Shown: one piece after another, positions 4,581 through 53,726 of the stretch
Layout: every line of letters starts with the position of its first letter
Numbering within the stretch: position 1 is the first letter of the stretch
Made by a program: the position numbers and the translations under genes
IMG/VR virus record: IMGVR_UViG_3300043409_001689
Span: 1-56,588 of that record
Length of the DNA stretch: 56,588 nucleotides
Source: a virus
Strand: one strand, 5' to 3'
Notes under the pieces: model-generated
Database searches by the model: none
Seen by the model: only the letters and a program-made list of their open reading frames with translations
Told to the model about the DNA's origin: nothing

Positions 4581-4970
4581 TTATTTGTAAGTAATAAATA
4601 TATCCTTTGCCGTGAACATAGTAATACTTTTAATGCCACCTTTAGAATCCTTTAGTATTTCTACCTTATAAAATCCTTCCTCATTACTATCTAAGTATGC
4701 CACAAATTTGCACGGGCTAACTTCGTACATGGTAGCATCAAGAAACCAATAAGCGGTAACACCTACATAGATACATGAAGTCTCTTTTAATTCCAAGTCA
4801 TAAGACTTTATAAAAGTCTTTCCCCTTAGTTCCTTGAAAGTGCTAATACTTTCCTTTGCTTTAAAGTGTTGGGAACGTACTGGGGTAGTTTGTGCATAGC
4901 TTAAGGCAACAATGCAAGATGAAAGAATGAAAGTAATTAAAAGGCTTTTGATAGATGATAGATTAATCAT
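4581..4970 (-). CDS. Small exported protein with signal peptide
   Basis: 129 aa from the ATG at 4970. A longer reading from 5021 would place the start upstream of the leader motif (4976-4987) and of the GTTCCAA palindrome, so I prefer 4970. Residues 1-27 form a signal peptide (SLLITFILSSCIVALSYAQ). The mature part is ~100 aa, mixed beta, with two Cys that could form a disulphide. It is monocistronic and flanked by near-identical ~26-bp direct repeats (4537-4562 and 5007-5033), like a self-contained cargo cassette. A role at the host envelope, such as superinfection exclusion, is only a guess. Confidence 0.65.
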   Translation of the reverse strand: MINLSSIKSLLITFILSSCIVALSYAQTTPVRSQHFKAKESISTFKELRGKTFIKSYDLELKETSCIYVGVTAYWFLDATMYEVSPCKFVAYLDSNEEGFYKVEILKDSKGGIKSITMFTAKDIFITYK

Positions 4971-4989
4971 AGTAGAATTTTCGTTAAGC

Positions 4990-5005
4990 GTTCCAACATT
5001 GGAAC
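4990..5005. promoter_or_regulatory. Perfect palindrome, candidate operator
   Basis: GTTCCAA-CA-TTGGAAC lies immediately 5' of the leader motif of the 4581-4970 gene. A 7-bp dyad with a 2-bp centre suits a dimeric repressor or a small RNA hairpin. Confidence 0.45.
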
Positions 5006-5033
5006 ATCTATATACTTGCATAAACTATGCCAA

Positions 5034-6818: not shown

Positions 6819-7616
6819 TTATTCTTTCAATAACCGCTTGAAGTTCTCATTGGAAACCACCTTCGTTCCCTTCGCTTCTACCCTTTCTATTAACTCCTTT
6901 GTAAGGCTTCCCCCTTCTATGGCTGCTTCGTGGTTTTCTTGAAAGCCTATGGCGTTTTGTTCAATAGACTTGTTGCGGGTAAGTTCCTCGGAAAGCATGG
7001 AAAAGACCAATTCAAGATTAGTCATGTGGTCACGTAGGTTTTCTTTTTCAATCCCCTTAAAAGCCTTGTGTTCGCTTGGGGTCATGCCAAAAGTGTACTT
7101 GGCTACGGTGGCAGTTAATATGGAATATTCTTTATCCTCCTTAATTCCCCTTCTTTGCCATTCGTCGGTAAGTTCTTTACGGATGCCAATTGCTTTTAGG
7201 CGGCTCTCTATCCACTCTTGGGGATAGCCTTTGACTTCATAGATTCTACGTAAGCGGTCAATAGCTATTTCGGGTTCGCTGGCTTCGTCAAGGCGTTCTT
7301 TTCCTACTTCGGCAAGCCACAGCTTGAAGGGTTCTGCTTTAGGCGAAGGGATAGACATAATGATTCTTAGGATGCCTTCGCTGGGGGCGCAATCCGTGGG
7401 GCGCATTTTACCGTCTTGGGCTAAGAATTTCAACTTTACCCAATTAGGGGAAAGTTCACTATCGCGGCTCTTTAGGTTGTTCCAATACCTTGAAGGATTC
7501 GGGCTATCGGTCAAGACTTCAATAACATCTACTACCGAAAAGAACCATTCTCCTTCATGCCATACCTTGCGAATAGACGCTTCTTGAAAATTAATTATGC
7601 TGTTTGATTTATCCAT
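6819..7616 (-). CDS. DinD-like / Bro-N domain protein
   Basis: 265 aa, close to the usual length of the family. The N-terminal Bro-N-type domain starts at IRKVWHEGEWFFSVVDVIEV, followed by the conserved RIIMSIPSPKAEPFKLWL and ERLDEASEPEIAIDRL. The middle shows RKELTDEWQRRGI and the C-terminal part GMTPSEHKAF and ENLRDHMTNLEL. This is the classic block order of the DNA-damage-inducible protein D family, common in phages and host chromosomes. The biochemical role is uncertain; Bro-N domains often bind DNA. It runs against its neighbours, divergent from the terminase. A lone TACTTTTG (minus strand, 7635-7642) may be its promoter. Confidence 0.85.
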   Translation of the reverse strand: MDKSNSIINFQEASIRKVWHEGEWFFSVVDVIEVLTDSPNPSRYWNNLKSRDSELSPNWVKLKFLAQDGKMRPTDCAPSEGILRIIMSIPSPKAEPFKLWLAEVGKERLDEASEPEIAIDRLRRIYEVKGYPQEWIESRLKAIGIRKELTDEWQRRGIKEDKEYSILTATVAKYTFGMTPSEHKAFKGIEKENLRDHMTNLELVFSMLSEELTRNKSIEQNAIGFQENHEAAIEGGSLTKELIERVEAKGTKVVSNENFKRLLKE

Positions 7617-17300: not shown

Positions 17301-17765
17301 ATGTTCAAAAGACGGGGGAACTGGAATAAGGCTATGAAGATTACTCATAACCTTGAAAAATATGGAACTCAAACGAGAATCCATATTCTAAAAAAGTTAG
17401 CGGAAAAAGGTCAAAGAACCGTGATGAATCACATCATCTACCAAGACCTCAACTGGCAAGCCTTATCGGATAGACGGATAAAAGAAAAGGGGCATGATAG
17501 AATTTTAGAAGATTCTAAAACGCTCTTGAATAACATCAAAGGTGTGTCGAATGAAGATTCGGCTATGGTAGGCGTTCCAAGTAGCGTAACCTATCCCGAT
17601 GGAACACCATTAGCCCAAGTAGCCTACAATAATGAGTTTGGAGACGGCACAAATACCCCTTCAAGACCATTGTGGAAGCCTTCGGTGGATGAACTAAGAA
17701 TTTGGCAACAAACAGGCGTAAATAGTCCTTCAAAGATTCTTTACTACCTTCTAAAAAGCGTATAA
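17301..17765 (+). CDS. Tail completion / virion morphogenesis protein (HK97 gp10-like)
   Basis: 154 aa. An N-terminal basic helical part, then GVPSSVTYPDGTPLAQVAYN and NEFGDGTNTPSRPLWKPSVD: the pattern NEFG..(x)..PSRPF is the hallmark of gp10-like or phage-virion-morphogenesis proteins. The usual F in PSRPF is L here. It acts at the neck or tail end during assembly. It overlaps the next gene by one base. Confidence 0.75.
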   Translation: MFKRRGNWNKAMKITHNLEKYGTQTRIHILKKLAEKGQRTVMNHIIYQDLNWQALSDRRIKEKGHDRILEDSKTLLNNIKGVSNEDSAMVGVPSSVTYPDGTPLAQVAYNNEFGDGTNTPSRPLWKPSVDELRIWQQTGVNSPSKILYYLLKSV

Positions 17766-18430
17766 TGACTTTCTTGACAATAGACGATATAGATAAAAGC
17801 ATCTATGAACACCTACGTAAAGAAGTTGTAAGGTTGGGCTATTTGCCCGACATTCTTGGTGCAGACTATGAAGCGCAAAGGGAAGCCATAAGGGCTTCTA
17901 AAGGTCAATTGATAGACGTCTTTGCACCCGCTCCGTGGCAGTCAAGGGATATGAAAGAACTTTCAAGGTTCGTCATAGACCGTGTAGATACTCTAAAAGG
18001 AAAGTTGTTTGGGGGTGGAACGGTAGAAGAAAGAGTTATAGAAAATGGCGTGGAACGCATAAAAGTCTATAAGATGCCCGAAAACTCTCGGACGCTTGTT
18101 TACGAAGTTCGATTCGCTACCGATAACGCTGACTACGAACTACTGGCACATGATATAGTTGCAAAAGTCTTTGGCATGATTAAAAGGCTCCCTTGTCTTT
18201 CGGAAAGGCTGGGTACTGAGGGATTGGACTTTCGGGTGGTTTGGAAAGGCGAATACAATGCTTCAAGGTACGACTTCTATGAAAGGGTGTTTACCTTTCA
18301 CGTGGAAGACTTATTCTTGGATATGCACATTAAGGAAGATGAAAGAATATTTAGCCCTATTATAGAGATAAGGGTAGATATAGAAGAAAGTAATCAAACA
18401 CAAACAATCGTAACGGAAATTTTCAATTGA
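17765..18430 (+). CDS. Tail terminator-like protein
   Basis: 221 aa, mixed alpha/beta. The order of neck genes ends here, where the protein that caps the tail tube and sheath usually lies. It contains APWQSRDMKELSRFVIDRVD and a C-terminal strand series (FTFHVEDLFLDMHIKEDERI, EIRVDIEESNQTQ). No strong family signature, so the call rests on synteny. Confidence 0.5.
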   Translation: MTFLTIDDIDKSIYEHLRKEVVRLGYLPDILGADYEAQREAIRASKGQLIDVFAPAPWQSRDMKELSRFVIDRVDTLKGKLFGGGTVEERVIENGVERIKVYKMPENSRTLVYEVRFATDNADYELLAHDIVAKVFGMIKRLPCLSERLGTEGLDFRVVWKGEYNASRYDFYERVFTFHVEDLFLDMHIKEDERIFSPIIEIRVDIEESNQTQTIVTEIFN

Positions 18431-18459: not shown

Positions 18460-19797
18460 ATGGGTGTTTTGAAAACGAAAAGTATCGTTACGAATAACGG
18501 TGCTACATTCTCACAGGCTTCGGTTGCTACGTTCCTTCAAGGTGCTGGCATTTTTATCGAACCTTTGATGACTTATTTAGTGGATAACGACGAGTGGTTT
18601 GCAAAGCCCGATGTTGCTGGTCCTTACACCGCTCGTAATGGTAACAAGTACACTTTAGTAGCTTCGGGTGCTAAGTTTGCTACCATGAAAGTAGGTGGTA
18701 CTACTCACGCTTTGACGTTGGCTAACAACGTTATCGAAGCGGAAGGAAGTGGTATTGCTACGGTAAGCCTTTCTAACGGTAAGTTCGTCTTTGGTGCTAC
18801 TTCGGGTAGTGCTACGTTAGGACAACGTTTGTCGGCTGATGGCGCGGGTGGATTTGTGTTTGTTGACGATGTTGCTTACACAGCTACTAACGGTCAAGCA
18901 GTTTCTACAAGCGTAACCAATGGCGTTATTTCAAGCGAGTTGATTATCAAGTCAACTGCGGACAACGTGTTGGCAAAAGACGCAAGCGGTGCTTATGTGT
19001 TGGTGAAGGGTGAAGCGGGTAACGTTGTTTCTACTTCTTACAATGCTGTTACTGGTGCGATTAGTGCTACTTTCAACGTGTCAAGCGATGCGGGTAATAC
19101 TATCGAAGCGCGCGCAAACGGTGCTTACGCTAAAGCCTTAACGGTTTCGGCTGGTTCTGCTCCTTACGCTACAATCACAAATGGAGAATTAAATATTACT
19201 CCGTTAACAATTGGAACGGTAACGGTAGTACCTACGGGTGACATTAGCGCGTGGTTGCCTACAAGCTATACAGGAACAAACTTTCAAGAAGGTGATATGG
19301 TATTATTCCCAGCGTCTTCTATGGCTTTTGTTCACAATGGCGGGGCGACTGGTACTCAATCGGACTTCACGCAAATTCAAGTTCCTAACTTGACGCAAGC
19401 TACGGTTCGCTCTTGGTTGTCTGCACAAAACGGTGTGACTTACAATCCTTCTACGGGAGTGTTTGAAGGCGTGGTTGCTGCGGGTAATAGCGGTTTGACG
19501 GTTGGTGCTACTGGCTTCAACTTCGCTTACCAAAACCAAACGGTGTATGACGAAAGCGGTATCATGGATGCGGGTATCTTTGCACCTACTACTTTGCATA
19601 ACCTCTTGAAAGAGACGGGCAACTATGCTAAAAAGATGTGGGATACAACTTGTACTTACTTCTACATGAGCGGTGTATTGGCTGACAATACGCCTGTAAC
19701 TAAGAAGTTCTACCTTGATGGTGACGGACACTTAGTCTATGATGTATTTACAGGCGGTTCTGACTTCGCTACAAACGTATTGACGAACCCTTTTTAG
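18460..19797 (+). CDS. Large beta-rich virion protein with repeated GV/TNG motifs
   Basis: 445 aa. The N-terminus (~1-60) is a distinct domain. From ~60 to ~330 the protein is built of short strands with recurring A/G/S/T/N patterns (GIATVSLSNGKF, NAVTGAISATFNV, GNTIEARANGAYAKAL), like Ig-like or trimeric fibre repeats. The C-terminal part resumes a globular domain ending NVLTNPF. It could be a tail-fibre, spike or capsid-decorating protein. The stop codon directly follows a -1 slippery heptamer (C CCT TTT at 19788-19794), so a minority of product may be longer. Confidence 0.65.
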   Translation: MGVLKTKSIVTNNGATFSQASVATFLQGAGIFIEPLMTYLVDNDEWFAKPDVAGPYTARNGNKYTLVASGAKFATMKVGGTTHALTLANNVIEAEGSGIATVSLSNGKFVFGATSGSATLGQRLSADGAGGFVFVDDVAYTATNGQAVSTSVTNGVISSELIIKSTADNVLAKDASGAYVLVKGEAGNVVSTSYNAVTGAISATFNVSSDAGNTIEARANGAYAKALTVSAGSAPYATITNGELNITPLTIGTVTVVPTGDISAWLPTSYTGTNFQEGDMVLFPASSMAFVHNGGATGTQSDFTQIQVPNLTQATVRSWLSAQNGVTYNPSTGVFEGVVAAGNSGLTVGATGFNFAYQNQTVYDESGIMDAGIFAPTTLHNLLKETGNYAKKMWDTTCTYFYMSGVLADNTPVTKKFYLDGDGHLVYDVFTGGSDFATNVLTNPF

Positions 19798-19865: not shown

Positions 19866-19897
19866 TTAAAATCTTATCTAAAATTTGATTTTTATAG

Positions 19898-19928
19898 AAT
19901 AAGTGGGTAGTTTAACTACTCACTTATT
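19898..19928. terminator. Terminator hairpin
   Basis: A 15-bp stem with one mismatch (AATAAGTG-GGTAGTT / AACTACT-CACTTATT) followed by TTCTATTTT. Confidence 0.75.
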
Positions 19929-19973
19929 TCTATTTTAAGTAAATATCTTTTAATAACGAAAATTTCAAAATCC

Positions 19974-21794
19974 ATGATTAAGAAGTTATTTTTCTTTCTT
20001 CTTTTGAGCATTGTAAGCGTTTCATGCTTCTCTCAACAAGACACCGTTACTTTGCCTAACGGTCAAAAATTAATCCCTAAGAATCCTAATAACTACCCTG
20101 CGGCAGTCTATAACGATTCTTTGAAAGTTATTACCCATAATGCCGTTGTAAACGGCAAGCGGGTGAATCTTCAATTGTCTATGGGAGACATCAAGAACGC
20201 TTCCGTGAATGCTGCTACAAGTGCTACGGCTGCTTCAATAGCTTCTAAAGCAAGCACCACCGACCTCGGCAACCTCAACCTACAACTCCGCAGCGACTTA
20301 GCGACTAAGAGTGCCTTAATAGACTCTATCAAGAGTTTTGTAGTAGGTTTTCACTATGCAGGGTTCACTCCTAATAGCCCTATTTCAATAGACTATTCGG
20401 GCATGAAAAACGGATGGCACGCTATCCACTTTTCAAACACCGCCTACGGTGTCACTTACGATGCTAACAGTCAAGCGACATTACCCGTGGTGTCAACGTT
20501 TTACGATGCAGCGACGAATAGTTACAGCGAAGCGGGTTTCTCTACAACTACCATTAGAGACAATAATATTTTTATGGCGAAGGTAGAAAATGGCAGTCTG
20601 ACAGCTTGGTACAAGATTTCGCCTAATTCCCGCCTTGCGGTGGAAGTGGCAGCTTTAAAGACTTTGATGGGTCAAAAGGCTGATGTGAGTGCGCTTAGTG
20701 CGGAGAGTGCGGCGAGAGTGGCGGGGGATGCGGCAATAAACGCCTCTTTATTGGCTAAAGCAGATACGGGCTCGTTTTTAAAAATAGGTGGTAATTTTAA
20801 TACGCAACTCATTACAGCAGGAAGACAAACGGGTGTTACTCAAATAGGTGGCGGCTCTACTAATAATATTGGGAATGCAACTTGGCGTTATCATCAAGTC
20901 GCCATTGGGATAGCAGTTGACTCTCTTTATTCGGGTAGTGGTAGGTTTTTGAAAATATCAAACAACACTTTTGCGCCTTCTTATTGGAATCCTTTAACTA
21001 AAAGTCGACAACACGAGTCTCAACTTGATGGCAGTGGATTCTCTGCACGACAATCTGGTTATCAGTCATTTGCTACAAAGACAGTCATAGAAGCTGGCAG
21101 TACAAACGGTGTACTTAATCCTTTCTCTATTTTCAACTACAATAACTATAATCGTCTTTGGGCGGCAAACTTGCCTTTCGACGGCTTTGGAAGTTTATAT
21201 CCAACCGATGGTACGAATTGGGCTGTATTAACAAACACAGCCCAATTTGACACACTTAGAAATGGGCGTATGCAAGGATTTCAGGTTGGTTACAGGGATT
21301 CGTTGAATGATATACGCAACGGAATTTTCTTTTTGAAAAATTATAATCCTACTCACGACACGTTATATTTGAACCGACTCGGCTTAGGTTCGATAATAAG
21401 CATACGTGATTCAAATGCAACGTATGTCAAGAAAAATTATGCTAGTGGAATGTTAGCATTTGTGAAAATAGCAGACGATTCAAGGGTTAAGAGCAAAACC
21501 CTCACCCTCACCACCTCCTCAACACCCGCCTTGGACTTCGACCAAGGCATACAAGTTACCTACGTACTCACCACAGTACAAAACGGTGACTTCTTTGCAA
21601 GTTCCACGGTGACTAATGTAAGAGACGGAGGCATTTACAGGATAAGGTTTGTAGCACCTAACACGGGGGTAGTTTACACGTTCCCAAGCAATGTTTACAA
21701 AAAAGATGGAACAGCAATGGGAGCGTATGCGGTCACTTCCGAAACGCTCATATTCCATGCGGAAGGTACGAATTTGTATTGCGAGAATAAGTAA
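19974..21794 (+). CDS. Fibre-like protein with an N-terminal signal peptide
   Basis: 606 aa. Residues 1-20 (KKLFFFLLLSIVSVSCFSQ) are a clear export signal, with a possible but non-ideal lipobox. Residues ~60-110 (Ala-rich, ATSATAASIASKAS, then NLNLQLRSDLATKSAL) form a coiled coil. The middle and C-terminal part is beta-rich with fibre-like Gly/Asn/Ser repeats. Virion proteins normally lack signal peptides, so this may be displayed on the infected cell rather than assembled in the virion. Leader: AACGAAAATTTC at 19955, ATG 19974. Its neighbour is the T9SS-type gene. A typical fibre with a chance hydrophobic N-terminus is the alternative. Confidence 0.62.
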   Translation: MIKKLFFFLLLSIVSVSCFSQQDTVTLPNGQKLIPKNPNNYPAAVYNDSLKVITHNAVVNGKRVNLQLSMGDIKNASVNAATSATAASIASKASTTDLGNLNLQLRSDLATKSALIDSIKSFVVGFHYAGFTPNSPISIDYSGMKNGWHAIHFSNTAYGVTYDANSQATLPVVSTFYDAATNSYSEAGFSTTTIRDNNIFMAKVENGSLTAWYKISPNSRLAVEVAALKTLMGQKADVSALSAESAARVAGDAAINASLLAKADTGSFLKIGGNFNTQLITAGRQTGVTQIGGGSTNNIGNATWRYHQVAIGIAVDSLYSGSGRFLKISNNTFAPSYWNPLTKSRQHESQLDGSGFSARQSGYQSFATKTVIEAGSTNGVLNPFSIFNYNNYNRLWAANLPFDGFGSLYPTDGTNWAVLTNTAQFDTLRNGRMQGFQVGYRDSLNDIRNGIFFLKNYNPTHDTLYLNRLGLGSIISIRDSNATYVKKNYASGMLAFVKIADDSRVKSKTLTLTTSSTPALDFDQGIQVTYVLTTVQNGDFFASSTVTNVRDGGIYRIRFVAPNTGVVYTFPSNVYKKDGTAMGAYAVTSETLIFHAEGTNLYCENK

Positions 21795-21811: not shown

Positions 21812-21846
21812 TTGTGTAAGTTGCTGATATTCAGTAACTTACACAA
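21812..21846. terminator. Terminator hairpin between the two secreted-type genes
   Basis: A 11-bp stem (TTGTGTAAGTT / AACTTACACAA) enclosing a second small stem, followed by a T-rich stretch. Confidence 0.75.
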
Positions 21847-21883: not shown

Positions 21884-22750
21884 ATGTCAAAGACAATTAC
21901 TAAAAAGACGTGGTCAAAACCCACTATCACCGAAACCCCAATAAAGCCTAAAGGATGCCTTACAACCCTTTTGTGTCTCCTATCAGTTGCCTTGCTATCG
22001 CAAACGGTGACGATTAGCGAGGGGTGCAGTAGTGGCACAAACACCACCTACGTACTCCCGAAAACTACCCTAAACGATAGTGGCTACAACGTCTATCAAT
22101 CGGGCAACCGCCTATTTGAGTTCAATGTAGTCAGTAAGCGGTGGGAATATTCAGTCAATGGCACTATTCTATTTTTCAATAATGTGAAAAGTAAGAAACC
22201 ATTACCTCCGTGCAGCTACAAATTTGATTACAGTCACGTAGCAGCCTGTCAAGACACCACATTCGATGTATTGACCGATTGCACGACATTGCCCGTCGAA
22301 CTTCTCTACTTCACCGCTACATCTACTGAGAAGGGTATCATATTGAAATGGAAAACAGCAAGCGAGGTGAATAACAGTCACTTTGAAGTGGAATTGTCCA
22401 ATGACGGAAAGTCTTTTAAAACTATTGCAACCGTCAAGGCAAAAGGCTCAAATAGCCTATATGACTACTTGCACGATTCCAAGTCTTTTGAAGTCTCTTA
22501 TTACAGACTTAGGCAATACGACATAGACGGAAAGGCTACAACATTCAAGGTAGTGAACGTGTCAAACGACACAAAGTCTATCACAAGCCTTTTGGACGGT
22601 GTGGTGTATGCCGATGGTCGCATAGAAGCCTACAACACCCTCGGTCAACTCTTAGGAACGTCCGAGGGTGCTTTTAACCTCTACACCCTTGCAAAAGGGG
22701 TTATTGTGGTGAAGACTCGGGAGGGGGTGTTTAAGTATTTGAGGGATTAA
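21884..22750 (+). CDS. Secreted-type protein with a type IX secretion (T9SS) cargo-like C-terminus
   Basis: 288 aa from the ATG at 21884; a TTG at 21875 would add three residues. A hydrophobic segment (CLTTLLCLLSVALLSQ, ~residues 26-41) follows a basic N-terminal tail and can act as a signal sequence. A Cys-containing domain spans ~45-135. From ~138 there is LPVELLYFTAT, KWKTASEVNNSHFEVE and SYYRLRQYDIDG, the signature block that precedes sorting tails in Bacteroidota T9SS proteins. The last ~40 residues (IEAYNTLGQLLG, LYTLAKGVIVVKT) match the Por-type sorting domain. In a phage tail operon this is very unusual. Likely exported to the infected cell's surface. Confidence 0.72.
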   Translation: MSKTITKKTWSKPTITETPIKPKGCLTTLLCLLSVALLSQTVTISEGCSSGTNTTYVLPKTTLNDSGYNVYQSGNRLFEFNVVSKRWEYSVNGTILFFNNVKSKKPLPPCSYKFDYSHVAACQDTTFDVLTDCTTLPVELLYFTATSTEKGIILKWKTASEVNNSHFEVELSNDGKSFKTIATVKAKGSNSLYDYLHDSKSFEVSYYRLRQYDIDGKATTFKVVNVSNDTKSITSLLDGVVYADGRIEAYNTLGQLLGTSEGAFNLYTLAKGVIVVKTREGVFKYLRD

Positions 22751-22787: not shown

Positions 22788-23258
22788 ATGAAAGTATCAA
22801 GCAAAGCTAACAAGCTAATCAAAGGCTCTAAAAAGCCTATCACCACTATTCAAGGCTCGGAAGAACCGATAGAACTTCCAAAGGAACTTGTTGAAAATAC
22901 CGCCAAGCGCGTAGAACTCGCAAGACCCGCTTCGGAAAGCGCAAAGAAGCCTTTTGTCGCCCCCGAAAAGATTAAGCCGTTAGTTCAGTCTTCTATCATC
23001 ATTGAACTTTCCCCTATCGCTACTAAACGCCTTGAAAGCGTTGATAAGGAAGCGGAAATAGAAAAGGTGAACTTGACAATTGATATTGAAAAGCTAAAGG
23101 TAAGATTTGCGGAAATTGACAAGAAGTCTGACGCAAGGAAGTTGGAAATCTGTCAAGGCGAAATGGAAGCAAGCGGAATTTCTTACGTGACCCCTATTCT
23201 TAGAATTACGGGAGACTACAAGGAAATTGAAGTAGCAGACTTATCGGCTAAGAAATAA
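22788..23258 (+). CDS. Lys/Glu-rich hypothetical virion-region protein
   Basis: 156 aa. The first ~60 residues are basic and Pro/Lys-rich. Residues ~85-125 (EAEIEKVNLTIDIEKLKVRF) are helical and likely coiled coil. The end is a short beta region (ILRITGDYKEIEVADL). No family is recognised. An exact leader motif copy (TTAACGAAAATTCAAAAG at 22765) precedes the ATG by ~20 bp. It is placed directly before the sheath gene, separated by a terminator, so it may be a minor tail or connector protein. Confidence 0.55.
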   Translation: MKVSSKANKLIKGSKKPITTIQGSEEPIELPKELVENTAKRVELARPASESAKKPFVAPEKIKPLVQSSIIIELSPIATKRLESVDKEAEIEKVNLTIDIEKLKVRFAEIDKKSDARKLEICQGEMEASGISYVTPILRITGDYKEIEVADLSAKK

Positions 23259-23362: not shown

Positions 23363-24847
23363 ATGGGTAGATATAATGGAACGCCAAGAGTAGATGTGGC
23401 TGTGATAAATCGGACTGATTTAGGCACTTCAAACTCTCTTGATGATATTTTTGCTTGGGTAGGTCCTACACAAATGGGGGAGCCTAACAAGCCTACTTTA
23501 GTGCAAAGTGAACTTGAATTTACGCAAAAGTTCGGGGGTGACTTGGCTTCAAGCAACTTTCCAAAACTCTGTAAAAGGGCTTTGAAAGGAGGTGCAAAAC
23601 TTCTTATAAGCCGTGTTGTTCATGTGGACGCAAACGGAGACTACACAGGCACAAAGGCAGAATCGGGCAACTTTGAAGCAAAGTCTTTGGGGTCTTGGGG
23701 TAACTCTTTAGTGGTCAAGACTTCTTTAGATGCTCGTGGTAATGTGGTTCTAAGTGTGGTTTTGGGTGGCTCTACGGTAGAGACTTACACCATTTCGGGA
23801 ACGCCTACGGCAAGTGAGGTAGAATTGGCTAACGCCTTTTTACGGTACGTGTCTATAAAGCCTTCGGGAGTAGGTCAGACTATTGCAAGCGGTCAAACAC
23901 TTGTTTTAGCTTCGGGAACTGATACGGGAACTATTACGGCTTCGGACTACGTTGGAAGTCAAGATGAAAAGACGGGTATCTATGCTTTTGATAATGAGCA
24001 AGGAATTAAGTTCCTTAGTTGCCCCGATGTAGCTTTAAACGAAGTAGATAGGGCTATTGTGGACTACTCCGAGATGCGTAACATCATTGCACTTTTACGG
24101 ACTCCTCTTGGGATTACGGGAGACTTAGCGGTGAAGTATCGCAACTGCGAAGCCCCTTATAGCGGACTTCCAATTGACTCTTACCAAGCCTTCATGTTGA
24201 CGGGCGGGGTAAAGACGGTAGATTTGATGGGAATTATCGTGGAATTATCGGAGTTGGCTGACGTAGCAATAGCTATTGGAAAGAAAAATAAGTTTGGAAA
24301 AGTTTGGAACGCCTTTTCCATGCAGCCTTATAACCTTGTAGAAGAAGCCGTGGGCGTGGTTTATAATCTTGATATTCCTTCAAGACAATCTGAATCTGAT
24401 GCAGTCTATAACGCTGGCTTAAACGCTATCATTCAAGACGACACGAAAGCTATCATGCTTTGGGGAGACTTCACGCTTCAACAAGACTTTTCGGCTCTTA
24501 GCTTTACGGGCAACGTGGAGTTGTTGCAAGACATCTTTGCGAACACTAAGCCGATTTATCGGAAGTATATTGGAAAGCTGAATGACATTCCTACTTGGAG
24601 AAACCTTCACCAAGCTATCCGTGTGATAATGGATAGGTATAAGACTGAGGGAGGAATCTATGATTACAAGTATTTTGGCGACCAAGATGTTGACAAGATA
24701 GAATTTATCAAAATCAACAATATTGCTGATGTAAATATAGGAATTTACAAAGTGGTTCTTGAAATTCAATTCAAGGCTACTTTACGCTATATAAGAGTAG
24801 AAATGATTGCGTCAATGCAAGGAATCCGTTTCACAATTTTAAACTAA
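23363..24847 (+). CDS. Tail sheath protein
   Basis: 494 aa from the ATG at 23363 (MGRYNGTPRVDVAVINRTDL), preferred because the upstream extension overlaps the terminator. The N-terminus carries the typical sheath start P-x-V-x-V-x-x-x-x followed by FAWVGPTQMGEPNKPTLVQS and a KLCKRALKGGAKLLISRV strand. The C-terminal domain has TWRNLHQAIRVIMDRYK, characteristic of the part that meshes adjacent subunits. It contracts around the tube to drive infection, which identifies the phage as a myovirus. Confidence 0.88.
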   Translation: MGRYNGTPRVDVAVINRTDLGTSNSLDDIFAWVGPTQMGEPNKPTLVQSELEFTQKFGGDLASSNFPKLCKRALKGGAKLLISRVVHVDANGDYTGTKAESGNFEAKSLGSWGNSLVVKTSLDARGNVVLSVVLGGSTVETYTISGTPTASEVELANAFLRYVSIKPSGVGQTIASGQTLVLASGTDTGTITASDYVGSQDEKTGIYAFDNEQGIKFLSCPDVALNEVDRAIVDYSEMRNIIALLRTPLGITGDLAVKYRNCEAPYSGLPIDSYQAFMLTGGVKTVDLMGIIVELSELADVAIAIGKKNKFGKVWNAFSMQPYNLVEEAVGVVYNLDIPSRQSESDAVYNAGLNAIIQDDTKAIMLWGDFTLQQDFSALSFTGNVELLQDIFANTKPIYRKYIGKLNDIPTWRNLHQAIRVIMDRYKTEGGIYDYKYFGDQDVDKIEFIKINNIADVNIGIYKVVLEIQFKATLRYIRVEMIASMQGIRFTILN

Positions 24848-25402: not shown

Positions 25403-25705
25403 ATGGGTAACAAGTATTCTCACATTCAACCAATTGGAAACAAGGTAATTTTCTTACAAGACCCCGCAGTTGAGCGCACAAAAGGGGGCTTAATAATTCC
25501 CGAAGACGCAAAAGAAAAACAAGCCTTCGGAACTATTATCGCAGTAGGTCCTTCGTGCCAACAAGCGGAAGTAGGAAAGCGTATTTGCTTTTCGGAGTAT
25601 TCGGGGCAAAAGGCAAAGGTTGTCCTTACGGATGGAACCATTGAAGAAGCTACTTCTATTTTTGAAGAGCAAGCTTTATACTTGTTTGACCCTATCGAAG
25701 CCTAA
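25403..25705 (+). CDS. GroES/Cpn10-like co-chaperonin
   Basis: 100 aa, the normal length of Cpn10. It shows NKVIFLQDPAVERTKGGLII, where the segment up to GGLIIPEDAKEKQAFG covers the first strand, the mobile loop and the conserved G-x-I-x-A-x-G strand (GTIIAVGPS). VGKRICFSEYSGQKAK and EEQALYLFD follow. In phages such proteins replace host GroES in folding the major capsid protein (T4 gp31 is the known case). Here it lies between tail tube and tail assembly chaperone genes, away from the capsid gene, so it might serve tail proteins. A host-derived copy is the alternative origin. Confidence 0.9.
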   Translation: MGNKYSHIQPIGNKVIFLQDPAVERTKGGLIIPEDAKEKQAFGTIIAVGPSCQQAEVGKRICFSEYSGQKAKVVLTDGTIEEATSIFEEQALYLFDPIEA

Positions 25706-42215: not shown

Positions 42216-42827
42216 ATGCAAATTATCATTCATAATCCAAACTCCCTGCCTACGGCTGACTATCGTTCCCTTATTCCCATTCAAGGAAACCTAAAAGACC
42301 TAAAAGAAAAGAATTACAAGAAACTAAAGAAGTCTTTTGAAAGGTACGGCTTCAAGATTCCTTTTTTCGTATGGATTCCTACGGAGTCTGAAAGCGTCAT
42401 GGTGGACGGGGAAGACTTTGAAATAGAAGCGGGTAAGATGTACTTGCTTGACGGGCATCAAAGGCATCGTCTTTTGAATACTGAGGGGTGTACGCCTTAC
42501 GAACTTCCGTATGTGCTTATAGAAGCGGAAAACTTCTTGAAAGCAAAAGAAATGATACTTGTCATAAGTTCTCAATACGGAACTATGACAAGGGAAGGCT
42601 TGGATAGCTTCGGAATTGAGCAAGACTTCTTTGAAGATTTCGTGAACTTTGATGCTATTGTGGATTTTGGGATAGGAGAAGAAGAAGAAGGGGAAGATAA
42701 GGAATCAAGCATGAGTCTTGACACTTTTTATAAAATAGAAGTGTCTTTAGAAAGTGAAAGCGAACAAGAAAAATTATTTAATGAACTTCAAAATCAAGGT
42801 TATCAATGCAAAGTTTTAACATTATAA
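42216..42827 (+). CDS. ParB/Srx-fold nuclease-like protein
   Basis: 203 aa. SLIPIQGNLKDLKEKNYKKL followed by KSFERYGFKIPFFVW and KMYLLDGHQRHRLL is the ParB N-terminal signature (L-x-x-x-N-x-(R/K)-x-x..., G-(F/I)-x-x-P, (V/L)-(I/L)-D-G-(H/N)-x-R). An acidic tail (~155-180) and a short C-terminal domain follow. In phages this fold often precedes DNA-modification genes. The leader is TTTAAGTAAAATG. The 3' end overlaps the ABC-type ATPase gene by 22 bp. Confidence 0.78.
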   Translation: MQIIIHNPNSLPTADYRSLIPIQGNLKDLKEKNYKKLKKSFERYGFKIPFFVWIPTESESVMVDGEDFEIEAGKMYLLDGHQRHRLLNTEGCTPYELPYVLIEAENFLKAKEMILVISSQYGTMTREGLDSFGIEQDFFEDFVNFDAIVDFGIGEEEEGEDKESSMSLDTFYKIEVSLESESEQEKLFNELQNQGYQCKVLTL

Positions 42828-43492
42828 GAAAAACTAAGCCAAGCAATTCTTTTAGAGTTGCATCAGTAATGGGAAGTTTTGACCTTCAAGACATCAACAT
42901 AGAAGAAAGATTTGAAGGGGCTTTTGATTTTCCTAATAATTGGCAAATAGGGGCTGTTATTGGCAATAGCGGAACTGGAAAGACTACAATAGCTAAAGAG
43001 TTATTTCAAGATGCTTTTGTCACTAATTTTGAATACACAAAAGACAATATATTGGATGATATGCCTATGAAAGCATCAGTAGCAGAAATAACACAAATGT
43101 TTAATAGCGTAGGGTTTAGTTCTCCACCGTCTTGGCTAAAGCCTTACCAAGTCCTTTCAAATGGTCAAAAGATGCGCGTGGACCTTGCAAATGCTTTACT
43201 ACAAGATAAGGAATTGATTGTATTTGATGAATTTACGAGTGTAGTAGATAGGACTATTGCTCAAGTAGGAAGTTTTGCAGTGCAAAAATCAATAAGAAAA
43301 ACAAATAAAAAATTCATAGCGGTTTCTTGTCATTTTGATATTGTAGATTGGCTCATGCCCGATTGGGTTTTTAATACTAACGATATGACTTTTCAAGTTA
43401 TGTCAAAAAAAAAAGACCAAATTTACGAATCGAGATTTTCAAAACAAAAGATTCAAGAATTTGGAACTTGTTTGCTAAACACCACTATCTAA
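42806..43492 (+). CDS. ABC-type ATPase domain, first half of an ABC-GNAT protein
   Basis: 228 aa in the plain reading. Walker A GNSGTGKTT at 53-61, signature LSNGQ at 117-121, Walker B LIVFDE at 137-142, switch His in CHFD at 175-178. There is no membrane domain, so it is a soluble ABC ATPase. The zero frame ends soon after a run of ten A. In the -1 frame translation continues without interruption through the GNAT domain, giving RPNLRIEIF and RIWNLFAKHHYL at the join. The final 25 residues of the plain reading are therefore probably not the natural C-terminus. Confidence 0.8.
   Translation: MQSFNIIRKTKPSNSFRVASVMGSFDLQDINIEERFEGAFDFPNNWQIGAVIGNSGTGKTTIAKELFQDAFVTNFEYTKDNILDDMPMKASVAEITQMFNSVGFSSPPSWLKPYQVLSNGQKMRVDLANALLQDKELIVFDEFTSVVDRTIAQVGSFAVQKSIRKTNKKFIAVSCHFDIVDWLMPDWVFNTNDMTFQVMSKKKDQIYESRFSKQKIQEFGTCLLNTTI
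43405..43414 (+). other. Run of ten A that joins the ABC and GNAT frames
   Basis: A10 read as AAA-AAA-AAA in the ATPase frame. A -1 slip here (ribosomal or polymerase), or one extra A from sequencing, would fuse the two domains into one ~358-aa protein. Confidence 0.7.
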
Positions 43493-43881
43493 ATCACAAG
43501 CTTAATCCTTCGTCTCAAATTTATGTGATGTTTTGCAATGATTTTCTTTGCGGATTTACAAGTGTTTTGCATTTCCCTCACCCTTCAAGCGATAAAATAA
43601 AAAGAGGGCATAGAACTGTAATTTTACCCGATTTCCAAGGAATAGGACTTGGCGTGTACCTTAGAGACTTTGTAGCTAATTTATACACTTCACAAGGCTT
43701 TCAATTTATAACTACTACATCTAACCCAGCATTAATTCATTCAATGAATAAGTCTAAAAAATGGAAATTAACTGCAAAAGGACGAACTCATTTTAAACCT
43801 AACAAGAATAATATGGAAGGCTTTAAAAAGACCGCTGCGGGAGCAAATAGAATAACAACTTCTTGGAAGTTTATTTGGTAG
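43468..43881 (+). CDS. GNAT-type acetyltransferase domain, second half of an ABC-GNAT protein
   Basis: 137 aa if started at the TTG at 43468; there is no ATG near. The frame is open further upstream to the A10 run, and the ~18 residues there complete the domain border. GNAT motif A is visible as VILPDFQGIGLGVYLRDFV (Q-x-x-G-x-G/L-x-x-x-L). The block TSNPALIHSMNKSKKWKLTA and SWKFIW at the end are typical of acyltransferases I recall fused to ABC ATPases. Substrate unknown. Confidence 0.78.
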   Translation: MFAKHHYLNHKLNPSSQIYVMFCNDFLCGFTSVLHFPHPSSDKIKRGHRTVILPDFQGIGLGVYLRDFVANLYTSQGFQFITTTSNPALIHSMNKSKKWKLTAKGRTHFKPNKNNMEGFKKTAAGANRITTSWKFIW

Positions 43882-46068: not shown

Positions 46069-46142
46069 TTTGATAACTTTTTACGCTCTTTTGATACCTT
46101 CTTAGGCTTTTTTGAGCAATTTAGAAATTTCGTTAATATCGT

Positions 46143-46215
46143 TGGCGTGATTGGAGTCGAACCAATACTTTCCCCATTGTAAAAATTGAGTGTGTTATCC
46201 ATTACACTACACGCC
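46143..46215 (-). tRNA. tRNA-like gene with an unusual anticodon arm
   Basis: Minus strand: acceptor GGCGTG/CACGCC (6 bp), D arm GTGT-AATGGATA-ACAC, T arm ATTGG-TTCGACT-CCAAT and discriminator A are all good. The anticodon arm CTCAA/TGGGG has one A-G mismatch and one wobble and would enclose nine bases (TTTTTACAA) instead of seven, so no anticodon can be given safely. CCA is not encoded. It lies between a 53-codon gene and the SSB-like gene. A decayed tRNA or sequencing error is possible. Confidence 0.6.
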
Positions 46216-46243
46216 TTCCAAAAAAAACAAATTTACAGTACGC

Positions 46244-52800: not shown

Positions 52801-53436
52801 TTATTTAAAATTTTCGTTAAAATATTTTTTAGTATAATTTAAGTCTTCAATACTTAATTCAAACCACTCACCTCCTACTCTTTTATTGTCAAAAAAGGCG
52901 TGTAGTTCTTTTTCGTCTTTTAATGTTCCATTAAATTGACTAACTAATTGTATTGTTGGATTTGAAGTCAAATGGCTCTTTAATCGTGAATCCATATTAG
53001 TAGTAAAACCAATTTTATGTAAACCATTGGATTTAAGCAAGTAGATTACTCCGCTTGTATATTCAATAGGTTTTATTTTAACTTTCTCGTTTGTTTTAAG
53101 CGTTTTAATGTCATTAAATGAATAACAAGACTTTCCAATTTGTTGAGATTTTGGATAAAAGTTAATAAGACCTACTTTGTTCAACTCAATCATAAGCCTA
53201 CTTATTCTTTTTGCTATACTTTGTTTTGTTATGTCTTTTCTAAAAATAATTGGTATTTTTTTAAATAACATATTGTAATTGATGTGATAGTATGCAACTC
53301 CTTCATGGTCTATTTTTTCAGTAGAAGATAATTTAGATATTTTTAAAGCTGAATCATAGACTATTATAGCTTCAATAGGCAAACCTAAATTTTTGCTACT
53401 CCAAAAGTCTTGGTCAATAGTTACTTTTTTTGACAT
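52801..53436 (-). CDS. Winged-helix protein fused to a T5orf172/GIY-YIG nuclease domain
   Basis: 211 aa from the ATG at 53436; upstream in-frame starts lie before the leader motif (53451-53462) and terminator. Residues ~50-110 (KKIPIIFRKDITKQSIAKRI, LMIELNKVGLINFYPKSQQI) are clearly related to the initiator's winged helix. Residues ~125-205 form the GIY-YIG-type T5orf172 domain: SGVIYLLKSNGLHKIGFTT, then SRLKSHL and EKELHAFF. The last codons (NENFK stop) are written by the leader motif of the initiator gene. Confidence 0.75.
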   Translation of the reverse strand: MSKKVTIDQDFWSSKNLGLPIEAIIVYDSALKISKLSSTEKIDHEGVAYYHINYNMLFKKIPIIFRKDITKQSIAKRISRLMIELNKVGLINFYPKSQQIGKSCYSFNDIKTLKTNEKVKIKPIEYTSGVIYLLKSNGLHKIGFTTNMDSRLKSHLTSNPTIQLVSQFNGTLKDEKELHAFFDNKRVGGEWFELSIEDLNYTKKYFNENFK

Positions 53437-53726
53437 AGGATTGATTTTAAAATTTTCGTTAAATAAATAATTTGTAAAGATATGTGAGTTTTCCATGTGT
53501 TTGCATAGGTGCATAAAAAAACCCTCGAAAAAAGAGAGGGTGGAAAGCACGAATAAGGAAAGCTAATAAAAAGACCTTATGCGTACAAACTCTCTTTTTT
53601 CAAGGGTACTCCTTGTAAAGAAATTGAAATAAAACAAGGACGCTTGAACACTTCCAAATGTCTTTGTTTATTAGCTAATTAAAAAGGCTTAATTACTATT
53701 GTTCCACCATCAATAATTAAGTGACA
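53437..53726 (-). ncRNA. Structured leader with attenuator-like alternative hairpins
   Basis: The transcript from the promoter at 53727-53758 has ~285 nt before the first gene. It contains CAAGG-AGTAC-CCTTG (53615-53601), an 18-bp helix formed by 53607-53590 with 53538-53521 (one G-U pair), and a terminator (53541-53515) that shares its 3' strand with that helix. The helix and terminator cannot form together. No ORF of useful length from ATG. Confidence 0.62.
53515..53541 (-). terminator. Terminator in the leader
   Basis: ACCCTC (minus) pairs with GAGGGT, 9-nt loop, then T7. It lies between promoter and gene, so it must be read through for expression. Confidence 0.8.

Follow-up and report, generated by a model that had tools for sequence, protein, structure and literature searches.

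A type IX secretion cargo-like protein encoded in the tail region of a contractile-tail phage

Why would the tail operon of a phage contain a gene whose product is built like the proteins that Bacteroidota route through the type IX secretion system (T9SS)? The gene in question (21884..22750, + strand; ATG at 21884, TAA stop at 22748-22750) encodes a protein of 288 aa and lies in the IMG/VR record IMGVR_UViG_3300043409_001689, which was analysed complete and is called here the window (56,588 nt). The record belongs to an uncultured virus, comes with no host genome attached, and its virus probably infects Bacteroidota bacteria. The answer that we consider probable is that the gene encodes a secreted protein, held at the cell surface or released, which uses the T9SS of the infected cell.

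The genomic setting is that of a contractile-tail phage, as defined by PHROGs matches to portal, head protease, major head protein, sheath, tape measure and baseplate. The same record carries portal, capsid, sheath, tape measure and baseplate genes, so the gene is part of a bona fide phage genome, and its position in a tail operon, as proposed in the preliminary description, was confirmed by these matches, including that of the sheath (phrog_23, E 1e-24). Single-sequence searches for close viral relatives returned none for the 288-aa protein and none for the sheath of the window, and alignments were needed in both cases.

Elsewhere in the record, a GroES-like co-chaperonin gene (25403-25705; Pfam Cpn10 E 1e-12, phrog_3188) lies inside the tail operon, between the tube-like and tape-measure genes. 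A ParB-like protein, an ABC-type ATPase and a GNAT acetyltransferase are encoded by consecutive genes (42216-43881), the last two of which each match part of a single fused family (phrog_11143), so that the gene is split here into overlapping frames; together the three may form a Mom-like DNA-modification set. A tRNA gene on the minus strand (46141-46216; Rfam 43.8 bits) is assigned by ARAGORN the anticodon TTA, corresponding to the stop codon UAA. Since TAA ends 41 of the 54 genes checked, stop-codon reassignment in this phage is unlikely, and by eye the tRNA can be read equally well as Lys (TTT), at the cost of one stem mismatch. A Bro-N antirepressor-like gene occupies 6819-7616 (-) and a T5orf172/MUG113 (GIY-YIG-like) gene 52801-53550 (-). 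A further signal peptide (MINLSSIKSLLITFILSSCIVALSYA-Q) belongs to a small protein encoded at 4581-5021 (-), distant from the tail operon.

Turning to the protein itself, the three sequence blocks quoted in the preliminary description are all present, LPVELLYFTAT at residues 136-146, TASEVNNSHFEVE at 158-170 and YYRLRQYDIDG at 206-216, and all belong to one fibronectin-III (FN3) domain (residues 135-231; 22286..22576, +), recognisable by its LPVEL, TASEVNN and YYRLRQYDIDG blocks. Against a profile of 34 cellular relatives constructed without the window, this domain scores 114 bits, far above chance; the only Pfam match to the region was of F5/8 type and sub-threshold. An AlphaFold2 model computed with 34 relatives reaches a pLDDT of around 90 or more for both the FN3 and the C-terminal domain (CTD), and the model of residues 135-231 presents a fibronectin III fold (VIA Z up to 12.4). 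FN3 domains are the usual spacer ahead of a T9SS sorting domain, and here an FN3 domain of the LPVEL..YYRLxQxDxDG type stands immediately ahead of the C-terminal domain, as it does in cellular FN3 + CTD cargo.

The comparison with cellular proteins was performed with the FN3+CTD region (residues 134-288) as query against 84,980 bacterial and archaeal genomes, and produced 41 confirmed relatives, nearly all of them from Bacteroidota, the one record from outside that group belonging to Ignavibacteria. Every one of the 41 carries, by eye and by profile, a T9SS-type CTD directly after the FN3 domain and at the extreme end of the protein. Furthermore, the last half of a profile of the aligned relatives (A5) matches the solved T9SS CTDs of NucA (8glk), FspA (8glj), RgpB (5hfs) and RemZ (8gl8), and a profile restricted to the CTD of the relatives gives stronger matches to solved T9SS CTDs than A5. 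The FN3 + type A CTD cargo of cellular Bacteroidota (e.g., loci L061, L067 and L085) shares the domain order of the phage protein, with 27-37% identity over the FN3+CTD alignment. It differs, however, in two respects: 86-134 residues follow the FN3 motif in the 39 cellular relatives measured, against 72 in the window protein, and most of these cellular proteins hold the full motif A (YPNP), which the window protein lacks. In a tree built to address the origin of the gene, the FN3 domain grouped weakly with cellular FN3 domains, with a support (0.46) that is too low and with a cellular set that had been picked using the window's own peptides.

At the C-terminus, residues 232-288 (22577..22747, +) form what we describe as a condensed, divergent T9SS type A-like CTD. 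In the motif nomenclature of a previous study (PMC10202324), motif B (RIEAYNTLGQLL) is present, motifs D (AKGVIVVK) and E (FKYLRD) are degenerate, and motif A, the YPNP start, is absent; the usual GxY reads GVI, and the last conserved lysine has become an arginine. Neither TIGR04183 nor PF18962 matched the 288-aa protein at E-values up to 10. The CTD taken alone scores 4.7 bits against the CTD profile, a value attained by about 1 in 100 shuffles; when it is joined to the FN3 domain, the score rises by 9 bits, and the real score was matched by 8 of 2000 shuffled tails. Modelled alone, it reaches a mean pLDDT of 86, and its best structural matches are to the RgpB CTD, at Z 7.2 (rmsd 3.4, 61 residues) and 7.0, with the CTDs of PorZ, FspA, RemA, NucA and HBP35 also among the best. 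These values must be read with care, as Z stays under 8, the model contains five strands and not seven, and alignments of true CTDs underlie the CTD models, so that a T9SS CTD fold is favoured from the outset. A Foldseek search of the solo model against 350,542 chains gave T9SS CTDs as six of the first 14 matches, every E-value being poor.

Altogether, the Por-type C-terminus proposed in the preliminary description survives as a predicted fold resembling T9SS CTDs, although its sequence signal is weak, motif A is absent and the two curated profiles are silent. The lack of a profile match, which the preliminary description had named as a refutation, literally applies to the curated CTD profiles, but the profile of the relatives covers the region and matches solved T9SS CTDs. 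The T9SS-cargo make-up as a whole is backed by the CTD of all 41 cellular relatives, by the alignment of the window C-terminus with them and by its similar predicted fold, though not by curated profiles. Because it fails both these profiles and motif A, we do not file the protein under TIGR04183 or PF18962, and prefer to say that it works like such cargo. Shortening in itself is not disqualifying: the final 22 residues of the HBP35 CTD, comprising motifs D and E, are enough to secrete GFP (PMC10202324), which indicates that a shortened CTD can work.

At the other end of the protein, residues 1-40 (21884..22003, +) are signal-peptide-like in sequence, in an atypical manner. They include a hydrophobic core of 14 residues (26-39; hydropathy 2.71 over 11 residues) that ends in LLS-Q, an ending typical of Bacteroidota signal peptides. 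This much agrees with the signal-like segment that had been claimed; the leader that precedes the hydrophobic core, however, is lysine-rich and unusually long (23 residues), and our own signal-peptide heuristic does not flag the protein, since the core lies too far from the start. Between this N-terminus and the FN3 domain, residues 41-134 (22004..22285, +) are presumed to constitute the functional head; they were modelled with low confidence, and profile searches found no known family for them.

The protein has relatives in other viruses. A tblastn search of 50,697 phage records found them in four metagenomic huge-phage genomes only. The genes in LR756500, LR756502 and LR756504 encode a signal peptide, an FN3 domain and a CTD-like end, and the ORF in LR745206 is a fragment without a signal peptide of its own. 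One of these four proteins has a CTD above the TIGR04183 cut-off and the others fall below it; unlike the window gene, none is found in a tail operon of the window type. With the alignment as query, relatives were found to be encoded on at least 122 IMG/VR contigs. These are real phages, as the viral copies adjoin genes for gp23 capsid, endolysin, ribonucleotide reductase, T4-type RNA ligase and tail fibres. Among 57 non-redundant viral relatives, 50 have a signal peptide by the heuristic; after the FN3 motif, 46 continue for 32-63 residues and the other 11 for 75-98; the contrast in short stretches between viral (46/57) and cellular (0/39) proteins is inflated by the selection of both sets. 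The curated profiles reach few of the viral relatives (PF18962 7 of 49, TIGR04183 8 of 49).

The condensed CTD has the consensus KxxNLxGQEVxxxYxGxxIxxYxDGTxxK and was observed in viral loci (L102-L181) as well as in cellular ones such as L182 and L183, mostly missed by TIGR04183 and PF18962. The notion that it is a phage-only feature was discarded, given that 79 of 150 Flavobacteriales genomes carry it; two of these matches are on cellular proteins recognised by eye as CotH-like. A general tie of the viral FN3+CTD class to tail operons was likewise rejected, the neighbours of the other viral copies being mixed: most adjoin other kinds of phage gene, and the tail-operon position in the window is not typical. 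The phage collection searched contained no cultured phage with virion proteomics that carries this class.

In the window, four genes, for proteins of 445, 606, 288 and 156 aa, separate a presumed tail terminator (17765..18430, +; assigned by gene order, with no profile match) from the tail sheath (23363..24847, +). The first (18460..19797, +) encodes a protein without signal peptide, the second (19974..21794, +) a fibre-like protein that begins with a canonical signal peptide (MIKKLFFFLLLSIVSVSCFS-Q) and has no CTD, and the last is the 156-aa gene (22788..23258, +). Strong hairpins stand upstream of the 606-aa gene (19897..19929, +; folding z -5.5) and just upstream of the 288-aa gene (21812..21846, +; folding z -8.6), the latter terminator-like without an immediate T run; a sigma-70 promoter scan gave nothing above chance. 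The GC skew of the 606-aa and 288-aa genes differs from that of the structural genes. In phage relatives, reached via terminase, sheath and portal, the terminator directly adjoins the sheath in 13 of the 16 loci inspected, and the 288-aa protein was not found in the two nearest phages with a tail operon. The hairpins, the GC skew and the variable gene content fit a swappable accessory cassette.

A comparable gap in G002 (L014, 4905-11820) encodes signal-peptide proteins of 297, 321, 195 and 1149 aa, of which the 195-aa protein contains a 3-coathanger stack (GCX_COOH) domain above its cut-off and the 1149-aa protein contains collagen repeats slightly below the Pfam cut-off. In L030 (4086-9285), the gap encodes proteins of 845, 619 and 278 aa, all with signal peptides, and the first two contain Pfam phage-tail repeats (PTR). 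Contractile phages here encode, between terminator and sheath, large proteins with clear Sec signals, several of them fibre-like (L014, L030; 19974-21794 in the window). Virion fibres should need no signal peptide. In a survey of phage diversity-generating-retroelement proteins, no signal peptides were reported (PMC6199706).

The first of the rival explanations in probability, itself unlikely, makes the product a virion protein, a neck or tail decoration or an adhesin, in which FN3 would be an exposed spacer, the hydrophobic segment no working signal and the C-terminus a small beta domain. Phage tails commonly carry FN3 domains, the gene lies among fibre-like genes between tail terminator and sheath, and the best Foldseek matches of the whole model include the tail tips of T5, DT57C and T1. 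Yet the FN3 sequence groups with T9SS cargo proteins and not with tail FN3 domains, a virion protein would need neither the hydrophobic N-terminus nor the CTD-like end, signal peptides are clear in most viral relatives, and the protein is absent from the relatives checked.

Next in order, and likewise improbable, is that a captured host gene is decaying, having lost from its T9SS signal motif A and key residues, with a product that would stay periplasmic or not be made at all. A shortened CTD without motif A or profile match is what this would leave, and the weak grouping with cellular FN3 domains agrees with capture, as do the GC skew (GC3 skew -0.18) and the codon use (codon z 3.8), which set the gene apart from the structural genes. 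However, the ORF is intact, the codon use of other window genes is just as deviant, and shortened CTDs occur in 46 of the 57 viral relatives and in 79 of the 150 Flavobacteriales genomes, which argues that shortening alone is not decay.

A wider idea, which we regard as quite doubtful, is that the stretch from terminator to sheath is a dedicated phage cassette for exported proteins, which would form a phage-built coat or adhesin layer on the infected cell, or fibres that attach to particles outside the cytoplasm. At the same low probability, it would bring together Sec-signal fibre-like proteins and proteins with host surface-sorting domains, the latter being, still speculatively, FN3 + condensed T9SS CTD in the window and the 3-coathanger stack in G002. 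Finally, export by Sec only, with an action in the periplasm or outer membrane such as lysis or exclusion, would suit the signal-like N-terminus and the adjoining 606-aa protein, with its canonical signal peptide and no CTD, but is very improbable, since an FN3+CTD tail marks all 41 cellular relatives as T9SS cargo.

The reading as a T9SS cargo has to bear the silent curated profiles, the weak CTD sequence signal, the lack of motif A, the atypical signal peptide and the lack of conservation of the gene in the nearest phages checked. From what was computed here, namely the domain order, the relatives, the predicted fold and the genomic position, we infer the following course. The 288-aa protein would be produced late, alongside the tail genes, and Sec would carry it over the inner membrane by means of its N-terminal signal. 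Once folded in the periplasm, it may be recognised through its condensed CTD by the SprA/PorV translocon of the host, the step in which dependence on T9SS would lie; it would then pass the outer membrane, after which the CTD would be cleaved. Residues 41-134 would be the working part and FN3 the spacer. The likeliest use, a role at the surface, would be to change the infected cell's surface or its surroundings, for instance by receptor masking, superinfection exclusion or adhesion.

Sorting domains of this kind have been met in phages before. In Cryophage, phage genes with T9SS sorting domains were described as "a unique occurrence", and the use of the host T9SS was proposed (Bellas et al., 2020; PMC7468147). 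Cryophage and the window share a phage gene, varying between phage variants, with a sorting domain that in the window is T9SS-like. The type A sorting domains of Cryophage, however, are attached to an endoglucanase, a GH39 and a PA14 protein, whereas the window protein has no recognised enzyme domain, its CTD is condensed and missed by profiles, and its gene lies between tail terminator and sheath (PMC7468147). In crAss-like cluster 2, T9SS sorting domains adjoin BACON ORFs (de Jonge et al., 2019; PMC6949934); there too, sorting-domain genes are next to structural phage genes, but they are tied to BACON repeats and to the head section, in a phage group other than that of the window. Moreover, fold comparison matched our model to two proteins of uncultured Caudovirales phages in UniProt, A0A6J5M2J1 ("Secretion system C-terminal sorting domain") and A0A6J5L8Z9 ("Gliding motility-associated, C-terminal domain"), both weakly and at 11-12% identity. 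The best reading of the window gene is hence that of a phage-encoded T9SS-cargo-like protein of a kind already reported in 2019-2020, with a divergent CTD. To those earlier reports the present analysis adds how abundant the class is, its condensed CTD, and a tail-region cassette of signal-peptide proteins.

Most of these sorting domains, in phages as in Flavobacteriales, are condensed and escape current profiles, from which it follows that the T9SS secretome is probably under-annotated. The presence of the class on at least 122 viral contigs, in several unrelated lineages that include huge phages, suggests that it is common rather than the unique occurrence described in 2020 (PMC7468147). If the proposed reading is true, Bacteroidota phages would routinely use the outer-membrane secretion machine of their host to bring proteins to the surface of cells that they kill or inhabit.
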